Origin: Beijerinckiaceae bacterium | GTDB taxonomy: Bacteria > Pseudomonadota > Alphaproteobacteria > Rhizobiales > Beijerinckiaceae | Assembly: GCA_030684835.1 (NCBI GenBank) | Contig: JAUXWZ010000109.1 | Coordinates: 1-64,000, forward strand | Direction of reading: 5' to 3' | DNA length: 64,000 bases | Part shown: positions 1 to 12,547 of the stretch, piece by piece | Layout of the letters: each line of letters begins with the position of its first letter | Numbering within the stretch: the stretch's first letter is position 1 | Notes under the pieces: generated by a model | The model's database searches: none | The model's input: the letters and a program-made list of their open reading frames with translations, nothing else | Told to the model about the DNA's origin: nothing | Translations under genes and position numbers: made by a program

Positions 1-3000
1 ATTCCCAATTACACCTGCTACGTCGCCAGCGAGTCGCTTGATTTGCTGGCGCCGGGGCAGGAGGGCGAGCTTCTCATCGGCGGCCCCGGCGTCGCGATGG
101 GGTATCTCGGCCGGCCAGATCTGACCGCCGAAAAGTTTATCGACAATCCTTTCGACGCCACCGGCGAGGACAAGATTCTCTATCGCTCCGGCGATGCTGT
201 CGCGCTTGATGATAATGGCGACATTCTCTTCCGTGGCCGCATCGACGATCAGATCAAGATCCGCGGCTTCCGTGTCGAGCTGGGCGAAATCGAATCCCGT
301 CTCGCCGATCTTGAGGGCGTGGGGCAAGCCGCCGTCGTCATGCGCAACGACGATGGCATGGACCAGCTCGTCGCGTTCATCGTGCCTGAAGGGGGCAATT
401 CCGCCGGCCTTGAACCCAAAGTGCTGCGGGCGAAATTACGCGATACCCTTCCAGCTTACATGGTGCCAGCGCGCTATGAGGCGATGACCGAATTGCCGCG
501 TCTGTCGTCCGGCAAGGTCAATCGCAACGAGCTGAAAAAGACGCTGCTCGCGCCTGCGGAAATCACCGAGGAGCAGGAAGAGCCGCGCACGCAGACCGAG
601 GCGAAACTGCTGGAGGCCGCGAAGGCCGTTCTGCCGCCGCAAAGCATCCCGTTCGATGCCGACTTCTTCATCGATCTTGGCGGCCACTCGTTGCTCGCCG
701 CGAAATTTCTGGGCAAGGTGCGCGCGCATCCCGAGCTTGCCGCCATCACCCTGCAGGACGTTTACGCCGCGCGCACGCTGCGCGCGATGGCTGGGCTTCT
801 TGATGGACGCGCCAGCGCGATGGGTCCGCAGCGCGATCTGCGCTTCGATCCGCCGCCGCTGCGCCGCCGTATCCTGTGCGGCCTTGCGCAGGCGATTACT
901 CTGCCCTTCATCTTTGCGCTCGTGACCGCGCAATGGCTCGGCGTGTTCATCAGCTACATGCTGCTGACTGGCCCCGACGCGAAATGGTGGCAGGAAATCA
1001 TCACGCTCATGGGCGTGTACGTTCTCATCAACGTCAGCACGCTCTTCATCACCATCGCCGCGAAATGGCTGATTATCGGGCGCACCAAGCCGGGGCGTTA
1101 TCCGTTGTGGGGCGTATATCATTACCGCCTCTGGCTGGTGCAGCGCCTCGCGACGCTGGCGCACATGAAGTGGCTGCAGGGCTCGCCGCTTTTGCCGATG
1201 TATCTGCGCGCCATGGGCGCCAAGATCGGCAAGGATGTCGTGATCGGCGACCTCGACGTTGGCGCCGCCGACCTCGTGTACATCGGCGATCGCGCGAGTC
1301 TGGGCGGCAAGATCAAGCTGTCGAACGCCCACGTTGAAGGCAACGAGATCGTCGTCGGCCCTATCGTCATTGGCGCCGACGCGTATCTCGGCACGTCTTG
1401 CGTCATCGAAGGCGATTGCGTGCTGGGCGAAGGCGCCGAACTGCGCGATCTTTCGGCGATCACCGGCGGCGCCCACATTGCCGCCTGGGAAGCCTGGGAT
1501 GGTTCGCCCGCCCGCAAGGTCGGGACGGTGGATCAGGCCGCGCTCCCCGAACAGGCTGACGCCTCTCCCGCGCGCCGCAATTTCAACCTGCTCTTTTATG
1601 TCGGCGCGTTCCTTGTCATTCCGCCGCTCGGCCTGTTGCCGATCTTCCCCGCATTCTGGGTGTTCGACAAGATTGACGACTGGCTGGGCACGGTGGATCG
1701 CACGAGCTACCTCATGACCGTGCCGCTGATGGCCTGGCCCATGGGCTTCGCGCTGGTCCTGATGACCGTGGGCCTTGTCGTCGTGATGCGCTGGTCGATC
1801 CTGCCGCGCGTGCGCACCGGGCGTTACTCGATCTATTCGAGTTTTTACCTGCGCAAGTGGGTCATTCAGCTTTCGACAGAAGTGACATTGGAGACGCTCT
1901 CCTCGCTGTTCGCCACTGTCTACATGCGCAATTGGTATCGCCTGTTGGGCACGCGCGTCGGCAAGGACGCGGAAGTTTCGACCAACCTCGCCGGCCGGTA
2001 CGACCTCATCAATATCGGCGAAAAGAACTTCATCGCCGACGAAGTTGTGCTTGGCGACGAGGATATCCGTCGCGGTTACATGTACCTCGACACGGTGGAC
2101 ACCGGGCCGCGCGTATTCGTGGGCAACGACGCCGTCGTCGCGATTGGCTCGCGGATTCCCGAAGGCGTGCTCATCGGCATCAAGTCCAAGCCGCCCGCGA
2201 ACGAACTGATGTCGCCCGGCGACACCTGGTTCGGTTCACCGCCAATCAAATTGCCGGTGCGACAGCGTTTCGATGGCGGCGGCGCCAACTGGACCTACGA
2301 ACCCTCGTTCTGGCGCCGGCTCCTGCGCGCGACCTTCGAGGCGGTTCACATCTCGTTCCCGACGATGCTGTTCATCACCGGCGCGGTGCTTTCGATTGAA
2401 TTCATCAGCGAGCCTTTGCTGGCGGGCAATTATTCGACCGTATTCGTTTATTTCATGATCGCAGCGCTGGGCATGACTGCGTTCATGTCGCTCACAGTTG
2501 TCGCGATGAAGTGGATGCTGATGGGCGTCTACAAACCCGTCGTGAAGCCGATGTGGTCCTGGTGGGCGATGCGCACCGAGGCTGTCGCGGTTCTTTATTC
2601 CGGCCTTGCGGGCAAAGTGCTGATGGAGCATCTGCGCGGCACGCCCTTCCTGCCCTGGTATCTGCGTCTGTTCGGCGTGAAGATCGGCAAAGGTAATTAT
2701 CTGGACGCGTTCGACATCACCGAATTCGATTGCGTGCGTATGGGTGATTTCTGCGTGTTGAACTCGCTGTGCGCCCTGCAGACCCATCTCTACGAAGATC
2801 GTGTGATGAAGGTCGGCCGGGTCTATCTCGGTGATTGCGTGACGGTGGGCGCGGCGGCGACGGTGCTCTACGACACCAACGTCGGCGATTATGCCCAGCT
2901 CGGGCCCCTGACTGTCGTGATGAAGGGCGAATCGATCCCCGGTAATTCCGCATGGATCGGCGCCCCAGCAGAGCCATTCATTCACGTTCCGCACGGCGAA

Positions 3001-3033
3001 CAGGCGAGCGAGCCTGTAAAGGCTGCGGCCTGA
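1..3033 (+). CDS. Pls/PosA-type nonribosomal peptide synthetase, 3' part (epsilon-polylysine synthetase-like)
   Basis: The frame is open from base 1, so the 5' end lies outside the window. About 1010 residues are seen. First comes the end of an adenylation domain, with a YRSGD motif, the GRIDDQIKIRGFRVELGEIE core (A8) and an LSSGKVNRNEL lysine motif (A10). Next is a carrier domain with the phosphopantetheine serine in DLGGHSLLA. Then six hydrophobic segments come in three pairs. Each pair is followed by a soluble left-handed beta-helix-like domain (MGAKIGKDVVIGD, LGTRVGKDAEVS, FGVKIGKGNYLD). No condensation or thioesterase domain is seen in the visible part. This A-T-six-helix-three-domain order is that of epsilon-poly-L-lysine synthetase and the Pls/PosA family, which polymerises an amino acid through isopeptide bonds in the membrane. 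The substrate cannot be read because the selectivity pocket lies upstream of the window. Confidence 0.93.
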   Translation: MPNYTCYVASESLDLLAPGQEGELLIGGPGVAMGYLGRPDLTAEKFIDNPFDATGEDKILYRSGDAVALDDNGDILFRGRIDDQIKIRGFRVELGEIESRLADLEGVGQAAVVMRNDDGMDQLVAFIVPEGGNSAGLEPKVLRAKLRDTLPAYMVPARYEAMTELPRLSSGKVNRNELKKTLLAPAEITEEQEEPRTQTEAKLLEAAKAVLPPQSIPFDADFFIDLGGHSLLAAKFLGKVRAHPELAAITLQDVYAARTLRAMAGLLDGRASAMGPQRDLRFDPPPLRRRILCGLAQAITLPFIFALVTAQWLGVFISYMLLTGPDAKWWQEIITLMGVYVLINVSTLFITIAAKWLIIGRTKPGRYPLWGVYHYRLWLVQRLATLAHMKWLQGSPLLPMYLRAMGAKIGKDVVIGDLDVGAADLVYIGDRASLGGKIKLSNAHVEGNEIVVGPIVIGADAYLGTSCVIEGDCVLGEGAELRDLSAITGGAHIAAWEAWDGSPARKVGTVDQAALPEQADASPARRNFNLLFYVGAFLVIPPLGLLPIFPAFWVFDKIDDWLGTVDRTSYLMTVPLMAWPMGFALVLMTVGLVVVMRWSILPRVRTGRYSIYSSFYLRKWVIQLSTEVTLETLSSLFATVYMRNWYRLLGTRVGKDAEVSTNLAGRYDLINIGEKNFIADEVVLGDEDIRRGYMYLDTVDTGPRVFVGNDAVVAIGSRIPEGVLIGIKSKPPANELMSPGDTWFGSPPIKLPVRQRFDGGGANWTYEPSFWRRLLRATFEAVHISFPTMLFITGAVLSIEFISEPLLAGNYSTVFVYFMIAALGMTAFMSLTVVAMKWMLMGVYKPVVKPMWSWWAMRTEAVAVLYSGLAGKVLMEHLRGTPFLPWYLRLFGVKIGKGNYLDAFDITEFDCVRMGDFCVLNSLCALQTHLYEDRVMKVGRVYLGDCVTVGAAATVLYDTNVGDYAQLGPLTVVMKGESIPGNSAWIGAPAEPFIHVPHGEQASEPVKAAA

Positions 3034-4280: not shown

Positions 4281-5321
4281 GTGGGTATCGACAAATACAT
4301 GTATGCGCTTGGCCGGGGCTTTCGAGGCGTCAGGCAGGCTCTGGATGACGCCCGCCACGTAGACCCCGCGCGGGCCGCGCGTGACGTGACGCCGCCGCAA
4401 GCGCCAGCCGGCGCGCAAGGTCAGGCGCAAGGTCAGGCGAAAGATCGAGCGCACGATCAGGCGCCCGCGCAGCCCCGTTTGAACAATGGGCCCCCGCTGG
4501 CTCGCGACCCCCTTGTCCTTGGGCGCCGCACATTGGTGATGGGCATCGTCAACGTGACGCCGGATTCGTTTTCCGACGGCGGCCAGTGGTTCGATGCTTC
4601 GCGCGCCATCGCCCACGGCCAGCAGCTTGCCGCTGAAGGCGCAGATATTCTCGACATCGGCGGAGAATCAACGCGGCCCGGCGCTGCGCCAGTTTCGACG
4701 GATGATGAGATCGCCCGGGTCATTCCCGTCATCCACGCGCTCGTGCGCTCGACGCGCGCGCACATTTCCATCGACACGATGAAGGCGCCTGTAGCCCACG
4801 CCGCAATCGAGGCAGGCGCGACCATCATCAACGATGTATGGGGTTTTCAGTTCGATGCCGATGCTGCGCGCGTGGCGGCGGGCGCGAACGCGCATTGTGT
4901 CCTCATGCACAACCGGCGTGCGGACGATCCGAACGTCGACATATATGCCGAAGTCGTCGCCTTTCTTTCGCGCTCCGTGGACATCGCGCTGAAGGCCGGC
5001 GTTGCGCGTGAGCGGATTGTGATTGATCCGGGCATCGGCTTTGGCAAGACCCATGCGCAAAGTTTCGAGATGATCCGGCGCTTGCCGGACTTGCGGGCGC
5101 ATTTCGGTTTGCCCGTGCTGCTTGGCGCCTCGCGCAAGCGTTGCATCGGGGTGGCGTCGGGCGTCGAGATCGCAGCCGAGCGGGTGGCGGGCTCTGTCTG
5201 CGCGCATGTGTGGGGCGCCATGCATGGCGTCGACATCGTGCGCGTTCATGATGTTTTCGCGCATGTGCAGGCGCTCGGCGTGCTGCGCGCCATCGAACAA
5301 TCGGGTAAGGACCACGTATGA
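4281..5321 (+). CDS. folP: Dihydropteroate synthase with a repeat-containing N-terminal extension
   Basis: Condenses p-aminobenzoate with 6-hydroxymethyl-dihydropterin diphosphate to give dihydropteroate. The pterin-binding TIM barrel is clear: MGIVNVTPDSFSDGG, ADILDIGGESTRPGA, IIDPGIGFGKTHAQS and a C-terminal LGASRKRCIG. From the GTG at 4281 the protein is 346 aa, with about 70 extra residues containing AQGQAQGQAKDRAHDQ-type repeats. An in-frame TTG at 4479 would give 280 aa, the normal family length. The start is therefore open. I keep the longer frame because it follows aroC closely and has no stop codon. The stop overlaps the folB start (ATGA). Confidence 0.93.
   Translation: MGIDKYMYALGRGFRGVRQALDDARHVDPARAARDVTPPQAPAGAQGQAQGQAKDRAHDQAPAQPRLNNGPPLARDPLVLGRRTLVMGIVNVTPDSFSDGGQWFDASRAIAHGQQLAAEGADILDIGGESTRPGAAPVSTDDEIARVIPVIHALVRSTRAHISIDTMKAPVAHAAIEAGATIINDVWGFQFDADAARVAAGANAHCVLMHNRRADDPNVDIYAEVVAFLSRSVDIALKAGVARERIVIDPGIGFGKTHAQSFEMIRRLPDLRAHFGLPVLLGASRKRCIGVASGVEIAAERVAGSVCAHVWGAMHGVDIVRVHDVFAHVQALGVLRAIEQSGKDHV
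4413..4460. repeat. 12-bp tandem repeat in the 5' part of folP
   Basis: Two exact copies of GCGCAAGGTCAG (4413-4424, 4425-4436) are followed by two degenerate copies (4437-4448 GCGAAAGATCGA, 4449-4460 GCGCACGATCAG). Twelve is a multiple of three, so copy-number changes would keep the folP frame. The repeat encodes AQGQ/AKDR/AHDQ-like tetrapeptides in the extension. Confidence 0.8.
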
Positions 5322-5701
5322 TGCTGAAGGCCCGCATCCTCATCGAACAGCTCGAAGTGCACGCCTACCACGGCTGGCACGCTCACGAGAAAGAGTTCGG
5401 CCAGCCGTTCACGGTCGATCTGGAACTCGAGGCGGATATTTCGCGCGAAGCGGCGAGCGACGATTTGCACGACGCGCTGGATTATGCGGCCATCGTTCGC
5501 GTCACCCGCAAGCTGTTTGTGGAGAGCCGCTATAAGCTTGTGGAAGCCGCCGCAGCGGCGCTTGCGCGCGGATTGCTGTCGCAGTTTTCGCGCGTGCACG
5601 CTGTTGATGTGCGCGTGCGCAAGCTGAAGCCGCCGATCCCCGAGCGCATCGACGCTGTGGGCGTGAAGCTGCGCATGGGGCGCGCCGATATTGCCGATTG
5701 A
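5318..5701 (+). CDS. folB: Dihydroneopterin aldolase
   Basis: Cleaves 7,8-dihydroneopterin to 6-hydroxymethyl-dihydropterin and glycolaldehyde in folate synthesis. The 127-aa product has the tunnelling-fold FolB pattern: an LEVHAYHGWHAHEKEFGQPF stretch near the N-terminus with the conserved HG, then DALDYAAIVRVTRKL, KLVEAAAAALA and the C-terminal VRVRKLKPPIP. The start overlaps the folP stop by four bases (ATGA), a sign of translational coupling. Its 3' end overlaps folK by 11 bases. Confidence 0.95.
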   Translation: MMLKARILIEQLEVHAYHGWHAHEKEFGQPFTVDLELEADISREAASDDLHDALDYAAIVRVTRKLFVESRYKLVEAAAAALARGLLSQFSRVHAVDVRVRKLKPPIPERIDAVGVKLRMGRADIAD

Positions 5702-6218
5702 GACGAGCGACAAGGCTGTTTCTCGCGCCGCCATAGGGCTTGGCGGCAATATGGGCGACGTGGCGGACGCGTTCGTCACCGCGCTCGCAACACTCGATGC
5801 GCGCGCAGACTGCCGTATCACCGCGCGCTCCTCCGTCTGGCGCACGCCGCCATGGGGCAAGATCGACCAGCCCGACTTCCTTAATATGTGCGCGTTGCTC
5901 GATACAACGCTGGCGCCCCATGCGCTGCTCGACGTGTGCCTGTCGCTGGAGGCGGACGCCGGGCGCATGCGCTATGAGCGGTGGGGCCCGCGCGTTCTCG
6001 ACATTGATCTGCTGGCGTATGGCGATCTGGCCGTCAGCGACGAGCGACTGGTCGTGCCGCACCCACGCATGTTCGAACGCGCGTTCGTGCTGGTTCCGCT
6101 GGCGGAAATCGCGCCCGCGCTAAGCATCGGCGGCAGGCAGGTGGCGAGCCTCGCAAAGGTCTGCGACGCGGCCGACCTGAAAGTGGATGAAGACGCAACG
6201 CTGCGCGTGCGCGCTTAG
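5691..6218 (+). CDS. folK: 2-amino-4-hydroxy-6-hydroxymethyldihydropteridine pyrophosphokinase
   Basis: Transfers pyrophosphate from ATP to 6-hydroxymethyl-dihydropterin, making the folP substrate. The HPPK signatures are seen: AIGLGGNMGD near the N-terminus, SSVWRTPPWGKIDQPDFLN, and RWGPRVLDIDLLAYG with the metal-binding D-x-D, followed by VPHPRMFERAFVLVPLAEIAP. The start is assigned to TTG at 5691, inside folB, because no ATG lies before the conserved AIGLGGN. Length 175 aa is normal. It is the last gene of the aroC-folP-folB-folK run; the next gene has its own strong ribosome binding site. Confidence 0.95.
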   Translation: MPIETSDKAVSRAAIGLGGNMGDVADAFVTALATLDARADCRITARSSVWRTPPWGKIDQPDFLNMCALLDTTLAPHALLDVCLSLEADAGRMRYERWGPRVLDIDLLAYGDLAVSDERLVVPHPRMFERAFVLVPLAEIAPALSIGGRQVASLAKVCDAADLKVDEDATLRVRA

Positions 6219-7819: not shown

Positions 7820-8743
7820 ATGATGCGTAGTAGATTGTTGTTGACGACGGCGCTCGCGTCATCGGTCTGGTTCCCTGTTAATGCGGCAGACTTTCCGACT
7901 CCTTTGCCTCAGCTCGCATTGCCTGCTGTGGATGGCTTCAATGCTAAGGCGGACGCGTTTTTCGGGGCTAACAGCGAGCGCACGTTCCTGGGCCGCGACA
8001 ACGAAGGCGCTGGCGGCGTGGCCGGGTCGCTATCAATTCCATTATCGCACAGTTTCGGCTTGCAGATTGATGCGCTACTTGGCGGGCGCGACGGGGGAAT
8101 TGCCGGCGGCGGTGCTGCCCACCTGTTCTGGCGCCAACCTGACAAAGGTCTTTTCGGTCTTTACGGATCGCTGTTTCGGCATGATCGGCAGGACGTAACG
8201 CGTGCGCGCCTCGGCCTTGAAGGCGAACTTTACCTTGGTCGCTTCTCGCTGGTTGGTTTGGCAGGCTATGAGCGTACGGACGCTTCGGCAAATTTTGTCG
8301 GTTTCGTTCCGGGCTTTAATGTTTTTAACACGGGGTCAGAATCCCGTTTCTTCAGCGCGGCTAATATCAATTTTTACGCGAGCGAAAACTGGAAGCTCTC
8401 TGTTGGCCATCGCTTCACAGGCGGCATCCATGTGGGCGCAATCGGAACCGAGTATCTGTTTCAATCCGGCAGCGGCACGGCGTTTTCAGTCTTCGCCGAG
8501 GGGCGGCTCGGAGAAAATCGCTATTCGGCAGTCTGGGGCGGCGTGAGGGTCTACTTCGGCGCGAAAGACAAGCCGCTTATCCGCAGGCATCGTGAGGATG
8601 ACCCGAGCAACTGGCTCCATGAAGAACTCTATGGGCCTCGCGGCGTCGGGCAACGTCTCACGCCAATCATCGGACCGCCGCCGCCGCCACCCCCGCCGCC
8701 GCCGCCGCCTCCCTGCGGTTGTGGCCCCTGTTATCCGGCCTGA
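7820..8743 (+). CDS. Putative outer-membrane barrel protein with poly-proline, cysteine-containing tail
   Basis: A 307-aa protein with a signal peptide (hydrophobic core ending PVNAADFPT). It is followed by a glycine/aromatic-rich body in short alternating stretches, for example LGLEGELYLGRFSLVGLAGYE and LSVGHRFTGGIHVGAIGTEYLF. These look like beta-barrel strands. After a charged linker (RRHREDDPSNWLHEELYG) the chain ends in 13 consecutive prolines and CGCGPCYPA. No family is recognised. The reading frame runs unbroken into the next gene, which begins in another frame inside its last codons. Surface location is inferred from composition only. Confidence 0.75.
   Translation: MMRSRLLLTTALASSVWFPVNAADFPTPLPQLALPAVDGFNAKADAFFGANSERTFLGRDNEGAGGVAGSLSIPLSHSFGLQIDALLGGRDGGIAGGGAAHLFWRQPDKGLFGLYGSLFRHDRQDVTRARLGLEGELYLGRFSLVGLAGYERTDASANFVGFVPGFNVFNTGSESRFFSAANINFYASENWKLSVGHRFTGGIHVGAIGTEYLFQSGSGTAFSVFAEGRLGENRYSAVWGGVRVYFGAKDKPLIRRHREDDPSNWLHEELYGPRGVGQRLTPIIGPPPPPPPPPPPPPCGCGPCYPA
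8675..8713. repeat. CCG-type trinucleotide tract encoding 13 prolines
   Basis: Thirteen consecutive proline codons, mostly CCG, at 8675-8713, directly followed by TGC. Such a tract can change length by slippage without breaking the frame. Confidence 0.85.
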
Positions 8744-9921
8744 CGCAACGTCGCCGCCGCGCATTGCTTGCGTGTGAGGGTGGAGCAGGGCGCGGCCACG
8801 TTGTGACCTTGAAGTCAGCCGCGCAGGCCTTGCGAAGCAGGTTCGTTTTCGACGCGGCGCTTTGTCGACTCGAATACGCGTCCGAAATCGCTCCCTATTG
8901 TGAGGCTGTCTATCAGGGAGCCTATTTGCCTTATGACGCGTCGTCGCGGAGCGGCCCAGGAAGCGTGCGAACCGCTACCTGGGGCGAATTCATGGGCGAT
9001 CTGGGTTTTCGCGATCCTCAGTTTCTGGCCACGCAAATCGGTTGGTGGCGCGAAACTATGCGGACCCGGCGTATTTCCCTGGTCATCGCCGACTACGCTC
9101 CGTGCGCGCTGCTTGCCGCTCGCTCGTGGGGAATCCCCTGCGTTGGCATCGGAACAGGCTACGGCTTGCCGCCACCCGGCCTGAAGCAATTTCCCGTTCT
9201 TTTGCCGGAGTACGATACAAAGCTGTACGACGAGAAGGAAATGGTGGACGCGGTCAATCGCGCCGGGGCCTCATTGGGCGTCCCGCAGATCGAGCACCTG
9301 CCGCAGGTCTATGAGTGCAACGAGCAATTGCATCGTTCCTTTCCGCTGCTTGACCCTTACCGGGAGCATCGAACAGCAGCGCCGGTCCCGCCCGTCGCCG
9401 ATCTTGCAAAGAGCGTCGCGCAGGATGGCGACGAAATTTTCGTCTACTTTTCCACTACGGAGCGCGAGAGCGAGCATTTGATGGATGCGATCGCCGCGCT
9501 GGACGCGCCGGTTCGCATGTTCATGCCCAACATTGACGATGCGCTTGCCGCGAGAATGTCGGCAGCAGGCGTCATCATTGAGCGTCAGCCTGTCGATGTT
9601 GAAGAAATTGCGCGCCGCACCCGGCTCCTGCTCAACGGTGGACAGCATGGCATCATCTCACTTGCCCTTGCTGCCGGATTACCCCAGGTCTGCTTTCCCC
9701 AGCATCTCGAGCAATTGTATACCGCGCGGCGCGTTGAAGACGCGGGCGCGGGCGTTGCTATCGGAAGAACCGCGATGAGGGACGAAATACGCGCCGCCAT
9801 CGAAGCGGCCTATCATGATCAGCGGCTGGCGGAGAACGCGCGTCAAGTATCCGGGGTTGTACGGCCCTTTCTTGCGCAGGATGCCGACTCGATTATTAGC
9901 GCCAGACTTTCCGATTTGTAG
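8719..9921 (+). CDS. GT-B glycosyltransferase, GT1/YjiC-like
   Basis: About 400 aa. The N-terminal Rossmann half has ALLACEGGAGRGHVVTL, the glycine-rich start typical of GT1-type enzymes. The C-terminal half has RTRLLLNGGQHGIISLALAAGLPQV followed by FPQHLEQLYTARRVEDAGAG, the acceptor/donor-site pattern of UDP-glycosyltransferase-like proteins. It probably transfers a sugar to a small molecule, lipid or protein; donor and acceptor are unknown. No ATG precedes the conserved strand. TTG at 8719 or 8764 are the options, and the first overlaps the barrel-protein gene by 25 bases. The overlap suggests translational coupling. Confidence 0.82.
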   Translation: MWPLLSGLTQRRRRALLACEGGAGRGHVVTLKSAAQALRSRFVFDAALCRLEYASEIAPYCEAVYQGAYLPYDASSRSGPGSVRTATWGEFMGDLGFRDPQFLATQIGWWRETMRTRRISLVIADYAPCALLAARSWGIPCVGIGTGYGLPPPGLKQFPVLLPEYDTKLYDEKEMVDAVNRAGASLGVPQIEHLPQVYECNEQLHRSFPLLDPYREHRTAAPVPPVADLAKSVAQDGDEIFVYFSTTERESEHLMDAIAALDAPVRMFMPNIDDALAARMSAAGVIIERQPVDVEEIARRTRLLLNGGQHGIISLALAAGLPQVCFPQHLEQLYTARRVEDAGAGVAIGRTAMRDEIRAAIEAAYHDQRLAENARQVSGVVRPFLAQDADSIISARLSDL

Positions 9922-10768: not shown

Positions 10769-11707
10769 TCAACCGGGCGTCCGGCCCATCAGCGCGGTCA
10801 CATGCGCGGCGACGGAGCGTGCGAGCGCGGTCAAATCGTAGCCGCCCTCCAGAAGCGACACGACGCGCCCGCCTGCGCTGGCCTGCGCCACGTCCATCAG
10901 CCGCGTGGTCGCCCAGGCGAAATCCTCCTCGGTCAGGTTGATCTGCGCCAGCGGGTCGCGTCGGTGCGCGTCGAACCCTGCCGAAATGATGACGAGGTCA
11001 GGGCGGAAGGTGGCCAGTCGCGGTAGCACCTTGCTGTCCATCGCCTCGCGAAATTGGGCTCCGCCGTCGCCTGCGGCAAGCGGCGCATTGACGATAGCGC
11101 CCGAGTCGCCCGTTTCGTTACGTCCGCCCGAGCCGGGGTAGAGCGGCATCTGATGGGTCGAGGCGTACATCACCGTGGGGTCGGCCCAGAAGATGTCCTG
11201 CGTGCCGTTGCCGTGGTGCACGTCAAAATCCATGATCGCGACGCGCGCGGCGCCGTAAACGGCCTGCGCATGCCGGGCTGCGATGGCCGCGTTGTTGAAA
11301 AAGCAAAAGCCCATGGGCGTTGAGGTTTCTGCGTGGTGGCCGGGCGGGCGCATGGCGACGAAGGCGTTGGCGGCCTTCTTCTCCATCACCTCGTCCACCG
11401 CCTGACAGGCCGCGCCCACCGCGTGCATGGCCGCCTCCCAGGTGCCGGGCCCCATCAGCGTGTCAGCATCGAGGTGGAGGACTCCGCTGGTGGGGGCGGC
11501 CTCTTCGAGACTGCGAAAATAAGCCTCCGGGTGGCAGCGGACGATCTGTTCAAGCGTTCCGCGCCGGGCGCGTTCGCGTGCAAGCATCTGGAAACTTTCG
11601 TGCTCCAGCGCCTGCTCGATCACTCTCAGGCGATCGGGCTGTTCGGGATGGCCGGGGCCCATGTCATGGCCCAGACCGAGGGGGTGCGTGATGAAAAGCG
11701 TGCTCAA
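10769..11707 (-). CDS. Histone-deacetylase-superfamily amidohydrolase (AcuC/acetylpolyamine amidohydrolase-like)
   Basis: A zinc deacetylase of the class II HDAC-like bacterial group. The N-terminus STLFITHPLGLGHDMGPGHP fits the family when TTG at 11707 is used, preceded by GAGAGGATGAG. The frame extends 17 codons further upstream without homology. Active-site motifs are RPPGHHAETSTPMGFCFFNN, MDFDVHHGNGTQD (zinc D and H) and SAGFDAHRRDPL. C-terminal VVSLLEGGYDLTALA is also typical. Likely removes acetyl groups from polyamines, acetyl-lysine or similar amides. Length about 312 aa. It is not in an obvious operon. Confidence 0.93.
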   Translation of the reverse strand: MSTLFITHPLGLGHDMGPGHPEQPDRLRVIEQALEHESFQMLARERARRGTLEQIVRCHPEAYFRSLEEAAPTSGVLHLDADTLMGPGTWEAAMHAVGAACQAVDEVMEKKAANAFVAMRPPGHHAETSTPMGFCFFNNAAIAARHAQAVYGAARVAIMDFDVHHGNGTQDIFWADPTVMYASTHQMPLYPGSGGRNETGDSGAIVNAPLAAGDGGAQFREAMDSKVLPRLATFRPDLVIISAGFDAHRRDPLAQINLTEEDFAWATTRLMDVAQASAGGRVVSLLEGGYDLTALARSVAAHVTALMGRTPG

Positions 11708-11830
11708 AAACTCATCCTCTCGGACGCGCCACAGGGAGCGCCAAAGCCACCGCGTCATTCAGCGTCAACGTAGGCGCGAGCGCCTCAAGGCCCAAGGGCG
11801 CAAGCATCCTTAGGCGCCGCAAGTTCCAGC

Positions 11831-11854: not shown

Positions 11855-11944
11855 GTGACCCATGGTTAATCAAACCTTGAGTATTATACCCTAAGTAGCC
11901 TTTGGTTAACTATGATCGTGGATATTAAGGTTAAGCGGGGCGAT

Positions 11945-12547
11945 ATGATTTCCAGATCCATTATCATTTTAGCGCTGGCGATTGTGCTTGCCGGATGTAA
12001 TTTCAAAGATGTGCCAGACCCGTCGCTTTCATCGCGCGACGCCGAGTTCATGGCCAAAGTGCCCAATGTCGAAATGGACCTGGGATACGACCGTTACGAG
12101 ATCACCGATCCGACGGGCGAGACCCCGGGCACCATCATCGTCGATACGAAGGCGAATTTCCTCTATTTTGTCCTGCCCAACAAGCGCGCCATCCGCTACG
12201 GCGTCGCGACGGGTTCGGAAGCGTTCGGCTGGACCGGCGCTGCAGTTGTAAAGCGCAAGGCCGAATGGCCGCGCTGGATGCCGCCCTCAGACATGGTTGA
12301 ACGCTGGCCCCACTTGCGTCCCACGGCGGCGGCGGGCGGGCTTGGCGGTGGACCGGATAACCCTCTGGGCGCCCGCGCGCTCTATCTTTATCAGGGCAAC
12401 CGCGACACGCTTTATCGCATCCACGGCACCAACGAGCCCGACAAGATCGGCCGCAACGTGTCATCCGGCTGTATCCGCATGCGCAACATCGATGTGGTCG
12501 ATCTCTACAATCGCACCCCGATGGGCGCGAAAGTGATCGTGCGCTAA
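11945..12547 (+). CDS. L,D-transpeptidase (YkuD domain) lipoprotein
   Basis: Cross-links peptidoglycan or attaches proteins to it through an L,D-transpeptidase reaction. ATG at 11945 gives 200 aa; a GC-rich AAGCGGGG precedes it. The N-terminus is a lipoprotein signal (hydrophobic run ending VLAGC, Cys18), so the enzyme should be membrane-anchored in the periplasm. The YkuD active site is complete: IHGTNEP with H160 and the NVSSGCIRMRN motif with catalytic C176. The substrate-side PGTIIVDTKANFLYFVLPN also matches the family. An inverted repeat about 90 bases upstream may be its operator. Confidence 0.93.
   Translation: MISRSIIILALAIVLAGCNFKDVPDPSLSSRDAEFMAKVPNVEMDLGYDRYEITDPTGETPGTIIVDTKANFLYFVLPNKRAIRYGVATGSEAFGWTGAAVVKRKAEWPRWMPPSDMVERWPHLRPTAAAGGLGGGPDNPLGARALYLYQGNRDTLYRIHGTNEPDKIGRNVSSGCIRMRNIDVVDLYNRTPMGAKVIVR

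Follow-up and report, generated by a model that had tools for sequence, protein, structure and literature searches.

Two characterized enzymes are the closest described relatives of the synthetase gene considered here, which lies at the very start of a 64,000-nucleotide stretch of a Beijerinckiaceae bacterium genome (contig JAUXWZ010000109.1; hereafter the window). One is PosA, the delta-poly-L-ornithine synthetase of Acinetobacter baumannii (PDB 8G95-8G98), and the other is Pls, the epsilon-poly-L-lysine synthetase of Streptomyces albulus (PDB 7WEW); statements about both and about their family are taken from the accessible part of PMC10522769. Pls has an adenylation domain, a carrier, three helix pairs and three soluble domains with no thioesterase, and the same is true here. 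PosA has the same domain order and, by its description, the same kind of terminal domain; its model packs six helices and three five-turn left-handed beta-helices (LbH) together as a unit, and these beta-helices resemble those of sugar-nucleotide acyltransferases. The posA gene is reported as a single-gene operon, a further likeness to the window gene.

The same paper, published in 2023, also lists uncharacterised members, among which a group from Rhizobia, Methylobacterium and Archaea with the specificity code DLEDIGTV(T/V/I)K is singled out as a unique signature; the accessible text gives this group by its code only. The window enzyme is a member of the group or very close to it, with the same host groups and Ser at position 7 as the sole difference in the code, and the codes of its kin (DLEDLGTVVK or DLEDIGTVVK) match closely. 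Epsilon-polylysine-like clusters have also been reported, as a cluster class only in the accessible text, in almost all Methylobacterium genomes (PMC8561711). The Methylobacterium loci found here carry an enzyme with a DLED code, and the gene in those clusters is therefore very probably the same one. The sequence-only reading of the window had considered a product from this lineage to be of interest, but the lineage itself is no surprise: such enzymes are common in alphaproteobacteria and had already been noted in print. PMC10522769 already describes the family and how it works, reports it from Rhizobia and Methylobacterium and gives a nearly identical code; the added interest is in the near-fixed pocket and the core-gene behaviour of the DLED enzymes.

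The open frame occupies positions 1-3033 of the window on the forward strand (1010 codons followed by the stop, which ends at 3033), and its front is truncated by the start of the contig, here called C54, in a 4.93 Mb assembly of 208 contigs that is 96% complete. There is an exact 141-base identity between the reversed end of a second contig, C48, and the window start, and an adenylation domain on C48 runs off the end of that contig. This looks like an assembly overlap, with the two contigs adjoining and the break inside the synthetase gene. The 5' 363 codons are then on the minus strand of C48 (1230 down to 142), outside the window, and the joined gene has 1374 codons including the stop (~1373 aa) from the ATG at C48:1230, with later ATGs at C48:1188 and C48:1170 as possible alternative starts. 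In the front part on C48 (410 aa) Pfam identifies AMP-binding at residues 60-399 and nothing else, so the upstream portion amounts to one adenylation domain; the condensation domains or further modules that would have refuted the sequence-only reading are absent. Another contig, C203, was considered as the source of the missing 5' part and rejected, because its AMP-binding match (5057-5473) is internal to a 57,332-base contig and not terminal, while C48 overlaps exactly. A contiguous copy of the gene, L004, is present in the closest genome of the same genus (83% identical over 1-996), and by Pfam it has one AMP-binding, one AMP-binding_C and one carrier domain, and no condensation or thioesterase domain.

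Within the 1010-residue frame, the end of the adenylation domain (the tail of its core and the small A-sub domain) is at 1-516, with AMP-binding at residues 1-36 (model 348-384 of 384) and AMP-binding_C at residues 96-172 (model 1-76 of 76); the former is below its cut-off because the window holds only the tail of the domain. The carrier (thiolation) domain is at 613-801 (PP-binding, PF00550, residues 205-267, over cut-off), and its phosphopantetheine serine, Ser230 at 688-690 in a GGHSL motif, is present in all 145 aligned sequences. Hexapeptide repeats follow, and Pfam reports no condensation or thioesterase domain in the frame. In the place where a thioesterase would stand there is a terminal polymerisation domain at 886-2970 (residues 296-990) that scores 606.1 bits with the NCBIfam model TIGR02353 (NRPS_term_dom, 'Pls/PosA family non-ribosomal peptide synthetase'; cut-off 423.1) and covers model positions 2-695 of 695. 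There are two phosphopantetheinyl-transferase frames in the same genome (143 aa and 243 aa), the larger of which we take to be of the size of Sfp. The earlier proposal of a Pls-like back half, with an adenylation end, a carrier, three helix pairs, three LbH domains and no thioesterase, is borne out by Pfam, TIGR02353 and the predicted structure, and the interpretation as a Pls-type synthetase has the support of the family model, the domain order and the predicted fold. With high probability, the enzyme belongs to the Pls/PosA (CHPA) family of membrane-bound, single-module homopolymer synthetases.

The terminal domain was modelled with AlphaFold2 (AF2) on residues 274 onward of the window protein and an alignment of 52 relatives, and the model shows six long helices arranged as three pairs, and three regions of beta-helix (mean predicted local distance difference test score [pLDDT] 89.8, predicted template modelling score [pTM] 0.90). 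From the model and hydropathy, the helix pairs are at 859-1074 (859-966 and 985-1074), 1567-1800 (1567-1686 and 1699-1800) and 2308-2520 (2308-2421 and 2431-2520), with the first helix of the second pair broken in two in the model. Each of the six helices contains a 19-residue stretch with a mean hydropathy of at least 1.76, and by this computed topology all six are predicted to be hydrophobic enough for the membrane. A plain hydropathy scan flags one extra short stretch (residues 450-469, 1.64), which in the model is part of the first LbH domain. From first to last model strand, the LbH domains are at 1252-1527 (C1, which also has Pfam Hexapep matches), 2008-2232 (C2) and 2734-2958 (C3). The 50 Foldseek matches listed of 476 in the PDB are LbH acyltransferases, carbonic anhydrases and similar proteins, each as a single domain, and a sequence search with the terminal domain alone returns weak hexapeptide-type matches (best E 5e-4). 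The resemblance of the soluble domains to acyltransferases could be held against the proposed kinship with Pls. It does not overturn it, because the PosA model is described as having beta-helices of just this kind (PMC10522769, accessible part) and TIGR02353 spans the whole terminal domain.

Conservation in the terminal domain was assessed in an alignment of 145 members, comprising 118 with DLED codes, eight with PosA-like codes, 14 with DFE codes and five others (L170 and L173 were excluded). Past the carrier domain there are 24 polar residues whose conservation reaches 85% or more in every one of the three main code groups; eight of these are near helix pair 1, one is in C1, three are in or beside C2, two precede C3 and ten are in C3, including D916, N921, Q927, H929, E932, K937, Y957, K975 and E977. 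The motif N921-x5-Q927-x-H929-x2-E932-x4-K937 (2761-2811) occurs on either side of the deepest split in the tree described below, and among 13 sequences listed its Asn is missing only in the divergent L175. Because the polar residues conserved throughout the family concentrate in C3, this third LbH domain is the likely catalytic site of polymerisation. Published work on Pls reportedly includes mutations in its three tandem domains. From the homology with PosA and Pls, the adenylation domain is expected to use ATP to activate a diamino acid and to load it onto the carrier arm, and the three LbH domains are expected to assemble as a pseudo-trimer at the membrane. The amine on the side chain of one residue would then attack the activated carboxyl of the next to form an isopeptide bond, with the step repeated and catalysis in C3 by the residues named above. 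By analogy, we infer that the product is a polycationic, isopeptide-linked homopolymer of a diamino acid.

With the front recovered, the specificity residues of the adenylation domain could be read by alignment to PosA by way of L004, and they are D L E D I G S V V K, with Lys172 of the window frame at position 10. PosA has DMEHNGTVSK, and Asp1, Glu3, Gly6, Val8 and Lys10 are common to both; loss of either Asp1 or Glu3, both present here, abolished PosA activity (PMC10522769, here and below from its accessible part). Position 2 is proposed in that paper to set the chain length of the substrate, with Phe for 2,3-diaminopropionate (Dap) or 2,4-diaminobutyrate (Dab), Met for ornithine and Ala for lysine, and because Leu is near Met in size, ornithine or Dab is favoured. 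The adenylation core of L004 matches PosA with 387 bits over 406 residues, and the PosA entries are the sole PDB sequences at E 1e-105 or better; epsilon-Pls (7wew) is more distant, with 263 bits over 502 residues. Among solved structures, the nearest adenylation core thus appears to be that of PosA, which favours ornithine. The kinship with the Pls family stands, but the nearest characterised relative is the poly-ornithine enzyme and not epsilon-Pls, from which the window enzyme differs also in position 2 (Leu and not Ala) and in belonging to a gram-negative bacterium, in which its gene shows core-gene behaviour. Overall, L-ornithine is the most likely monomer, with about an even chance of being correct, followed by L-lysine or another diamino acid.

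The pocket is nearly fixed among relatives. A scan of named genomes retained the best 80 of at least 574 confirmed relatives, and 76 of these 80 loci have a readable full code; all 76 start with DLE, and 74 of them fit DLED[ILV]G[ST]VVK. Position 2 is Leu in 102/102 full codes of the clade (76 named loci and 26 from the same genus, some genomes being counted in both sets), and positions 5 and 7 covary, with I accompanying S or L accompanying T in 93/102. The codes of L170 and L173 are DLEDIGSVVK and DLEDLGTVVK, respectively. This near-constancy is one of the reasons to consider a diamino or related amino acid that is new to the family, given the two acidic pocket residues Glu3 and Asp4, and hence a new polymer. 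Asp4 together with Val9 is unlike the characterised codes printed in PMC10522769, where the DLEDIGTV(T/V/I)K signature is listed as unique. However, position 4 of PosA makes no contact with the substrate, and the ornithine module of bacitracin synthesis carries an acid at this position (PMC10522769), so Asp4 is compatible with plain ornithine too; we consider a new monomer unlikely.

L-lysine, which would give epsilon-poly-L-lysine as in Streptomyces, has the merit of being always available to the cell, and the pocket retains the Asp1 and Glu3 that are conserved in such enzymes. It is nevertheless quite unlikely, since Ala at position 2 makes room for the side chain in lysine enzymes (PMC10522769) and Leu is invariant here, and the adenylation core scores well below its PosA match against 7wew. 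Very unlikely, in turn, is Dab, with gamma-poly-Dab as the product. Leu at position 2 is not far from either the Met of PosA or the Phe reported for poly-Dap and poly-Dab synthetases (PMC10522769), but Phe itself is absent from the position, and the sequences with DFE codes fall across a split in the tree with 100/100 support. No Dab aminotransferase is over cut-off, either for dat (TIGR00709, 401.6 bits) or ectB (TIGR02407, 552.2 bits), in any of 41 same-genus genomes or in any of 18 other carrier genomes (the DLED code was read in 15 of these), although among controls the dat search was over cut-off in 1/14 and the ectB search in none, and a divergent enzyme could escape. All 41 same-genus genomes do have aminotransferases that score below the cut-offs (best 204 bits for dat and 200 for ectB), and in the other carriers such scores reach 277 and 258 bits. 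The Dab modules of Pseudomonas lipopeptides also start with D-L-E, which counts in favor of Dab. Because no Dab aminotransferase scores over cut-off, Dab appears disfavoured as the monomer. Finally, transfer of the loaded amino acid by the terminal domain to an envelope lipid, sugar or peptide instead of polymerisation would suit the LbH fold of many O- and N-acyltransferases, the core-gene behaviour and the lack of a recurrent biosynthetic partner among the neighbours seen, but is highly improbable given that PosA, whose terminal domain is of this kind, gave an isopeptide-linked ornithine polymer in vitro, and Pls likewise (PMC10522769), and that the C3 motif is common to both sides of the deepest split in the tree.

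The family is widespread, and sequence comparison indicates that the DLED code marks a clade found in many alphaproteobacteria. Hosts among the best 80 of at least 574 relatives include Methylocapsa, Methylocella, Methylosinus, Rhodoblastus, Bosea and Chelatococcus, together with Methylobacterium, Azospirillum, Paramagnetospirillum, Telmatospirillum, uncultured kin and others. In evenly drawn samples the family is present in 51/297 genomes of the order (48 over cut-off) and 27/398 genomes of the phylum (26 over cut-off). Within the genus, by comparison, all 34 genomes of at least 90% completeness, that of the window included, contain it, 33 with an unsplit gene over cut-off and one with the gene across two contigs; in the same-genus sample that includes incomplete genomes, the protein is present in 36/37.

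For a tree of the terminal domain, 60 of 147 sequences were taken (31 of 118 with DLED codes and all others) and 57 kept, with L038, L170 and L173 dropped since 500 aa or fewer of the domain remained. The 31 DLED sequences cluster as a single clade (97/99), and a split supported at 100/100 leaves them together with the sequences that have PosA (DMEH) codes; two PosA-code sequences from the same order have terminal domains 41% identical to that of the window enzyme. On the opposite side are 14 sequences with DFE codes, which fit the position 2 rule for Dap/Dab of PMC10522769 (accessible part), and two with no readable code. The branches of L035 and L175 are very long, and the placement of both is uncertain. 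Several of the relatives outside the DLED clade are of interest in their own right. L138, L142, L164-L166, L168 and L169, from genomes of the same order, class and phylum, have PosA-type codes (DMEHNGTV(S/T)K) and are possibly further poly-ornithine synthetases. L175, of the same class as the window, has the code DSECYGGVTK, identical to that of a Bdellovibrionales enzyme with modest L-arginine activity, and L035, of the same order, has DGESVSVVNK, one residue off the code of the epsilon-poly-beta-lysine synthetase (DGESISVVNK; both comparisons from the accessible part of PMC10522769).

The genes flanking the synthetase are those of a housekeeping block. A histidine phosphatase gene and fabI are upstream on C48, and downstream are aroC (chorismate synthase, PF01264, 3145-4263, forward strand), which belongs by synteny to the fabI-gpm-aroC block and is outside the proposed system, and folP. 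Among the best 80 of at least 574 relatives, aroC is within 2.5 kb downstream in 25 of the 75 loci with enough downstream sequence, and the phosphatase and fabI are upstream in 40 and 36, respectively, of the 68 with enough upstream sequence. The phosphatase is also within 0.75 kb before aroC in 9/17 genomes of the order that lack the enzyme (drawn from 20 in which no relative was found), with fabI too in four of these (1.5 kb flank). Because the phosphatase-aroC order exists without the enzyme, the synthetase gene was probably inserted into an older fabI-gpm-aroC block and then inherited. Recent import of the gene receives no support from its GC content (0.626, compared with 0.622 for the rest of the window).

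Neighbouring genes were clustered for 97 loci and the two halves of the window gene's own locus (99 sets), with clusters judged by eye, annotated in part and containing many shadow frames. Frequent neighbours are fabI, the histidine phosphatase, dnaJ (by eye), aroC, a histone-deacetylase-family gene and an L,D-transpeptidase, and no monomer-making gene that would indicate a biosynthetic gene cluster is among the frequent neighbours in these 99 sets. In the window, the histone-deacetylase-family gene (PF00850) is at 10769-11758 on the reverse strand and its cluster recurs in 34/99 sets; the L,D-transpeptidase (YkuD) is at 11912-12547 on the forward strand and recurs in 28/99. Their proximity is probably old synteny, and we note that a gene of the amine-deacetylase type near an enzyme for a polyamine polymer is worth a look. 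The interval 4281-6218 contains folP (PF00809) followed by frames that by eye resemble folB and folK, the last of which begins inside the end of the preceding frame. A 307-aa protein encoded at 7820-8743 matches nothing in Pfam; by eye its start resembles a signal sequence, and its C-terminal part has a run of prolines that leads into CGCGPC. As listed, the next frame (8719-9921), with a match to EryCIII-like glycosyltransferases, overlaps the end of this one. An Rfam search of the window gave no match.

The DLED clade may be making a housekeeping polycationic isopeptide homopolymer and not an antibiotic, perhaps with a new monomer or length, as a constant feature of the cell in the Beijerinckiaceae and their relatives (methanotrophs and Methylobacterium included), from a core gene inserted in the fabI-gpm-aroC block; we advance this tentatively. 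Several observations weigh against the main reading of the enzyme as a Pls/PosA-type homopolymer synthetase with ornithine as its most likely monomer. The pocket departs from that of PosA at five positions, with Met218, His260, Asn280, Thr304 and Ser313 replaced by Leu, Asp, Ile, Ser and Val (positions 2, 4, 5, 7 and 9), and in PosA the S313A substitution at position 9 caused a 183-fold loss of efficiency (PMC10522769, accessible part); binding of ornithine would therefore have to be rearranged if it is the substrate. When the whole adenylation domain is the query, linear gramicidin synthetase chains rank above PosA (456 vs 388 bits), with the 456 bits being the sum of two domains of ~227 bits each. 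No solved structure of a whole terminal domain is among the 50 Foldseek matches listed of 476 (TM-score by query at most 0.18), and the PosA-code sequences do not form a single clade in the tree. The joined gene depends on a single 141-base overlap together with the gene layout seen in relatives. No match was obtained in one same-genus genome (58% complete), and core-gene status alone does not demonstrate function. In the open-licence literature, no substrate, product or role was found for the DLED clade.

The presence of the gene as a single copy in every good same-genus genome searched suggests that the polycation has a standing physiological role, at the envelope or surface, and is not an occasional antibiotic. 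Natural polycations made by the family have uses as antimicrobial and cell-penetrating agents, and the authors of the PosA study urge tests of further pockets (PMC10522769, accessible part); here, one pocket type is nearly fixed across a large clade that includes cultured bacteria. Because of this near-constancy, and because the gene is in every good genome of one genus, the question of what such polymers do for the bacteria that make them, besides killing competitors, would be addressable in model methylotrophs.

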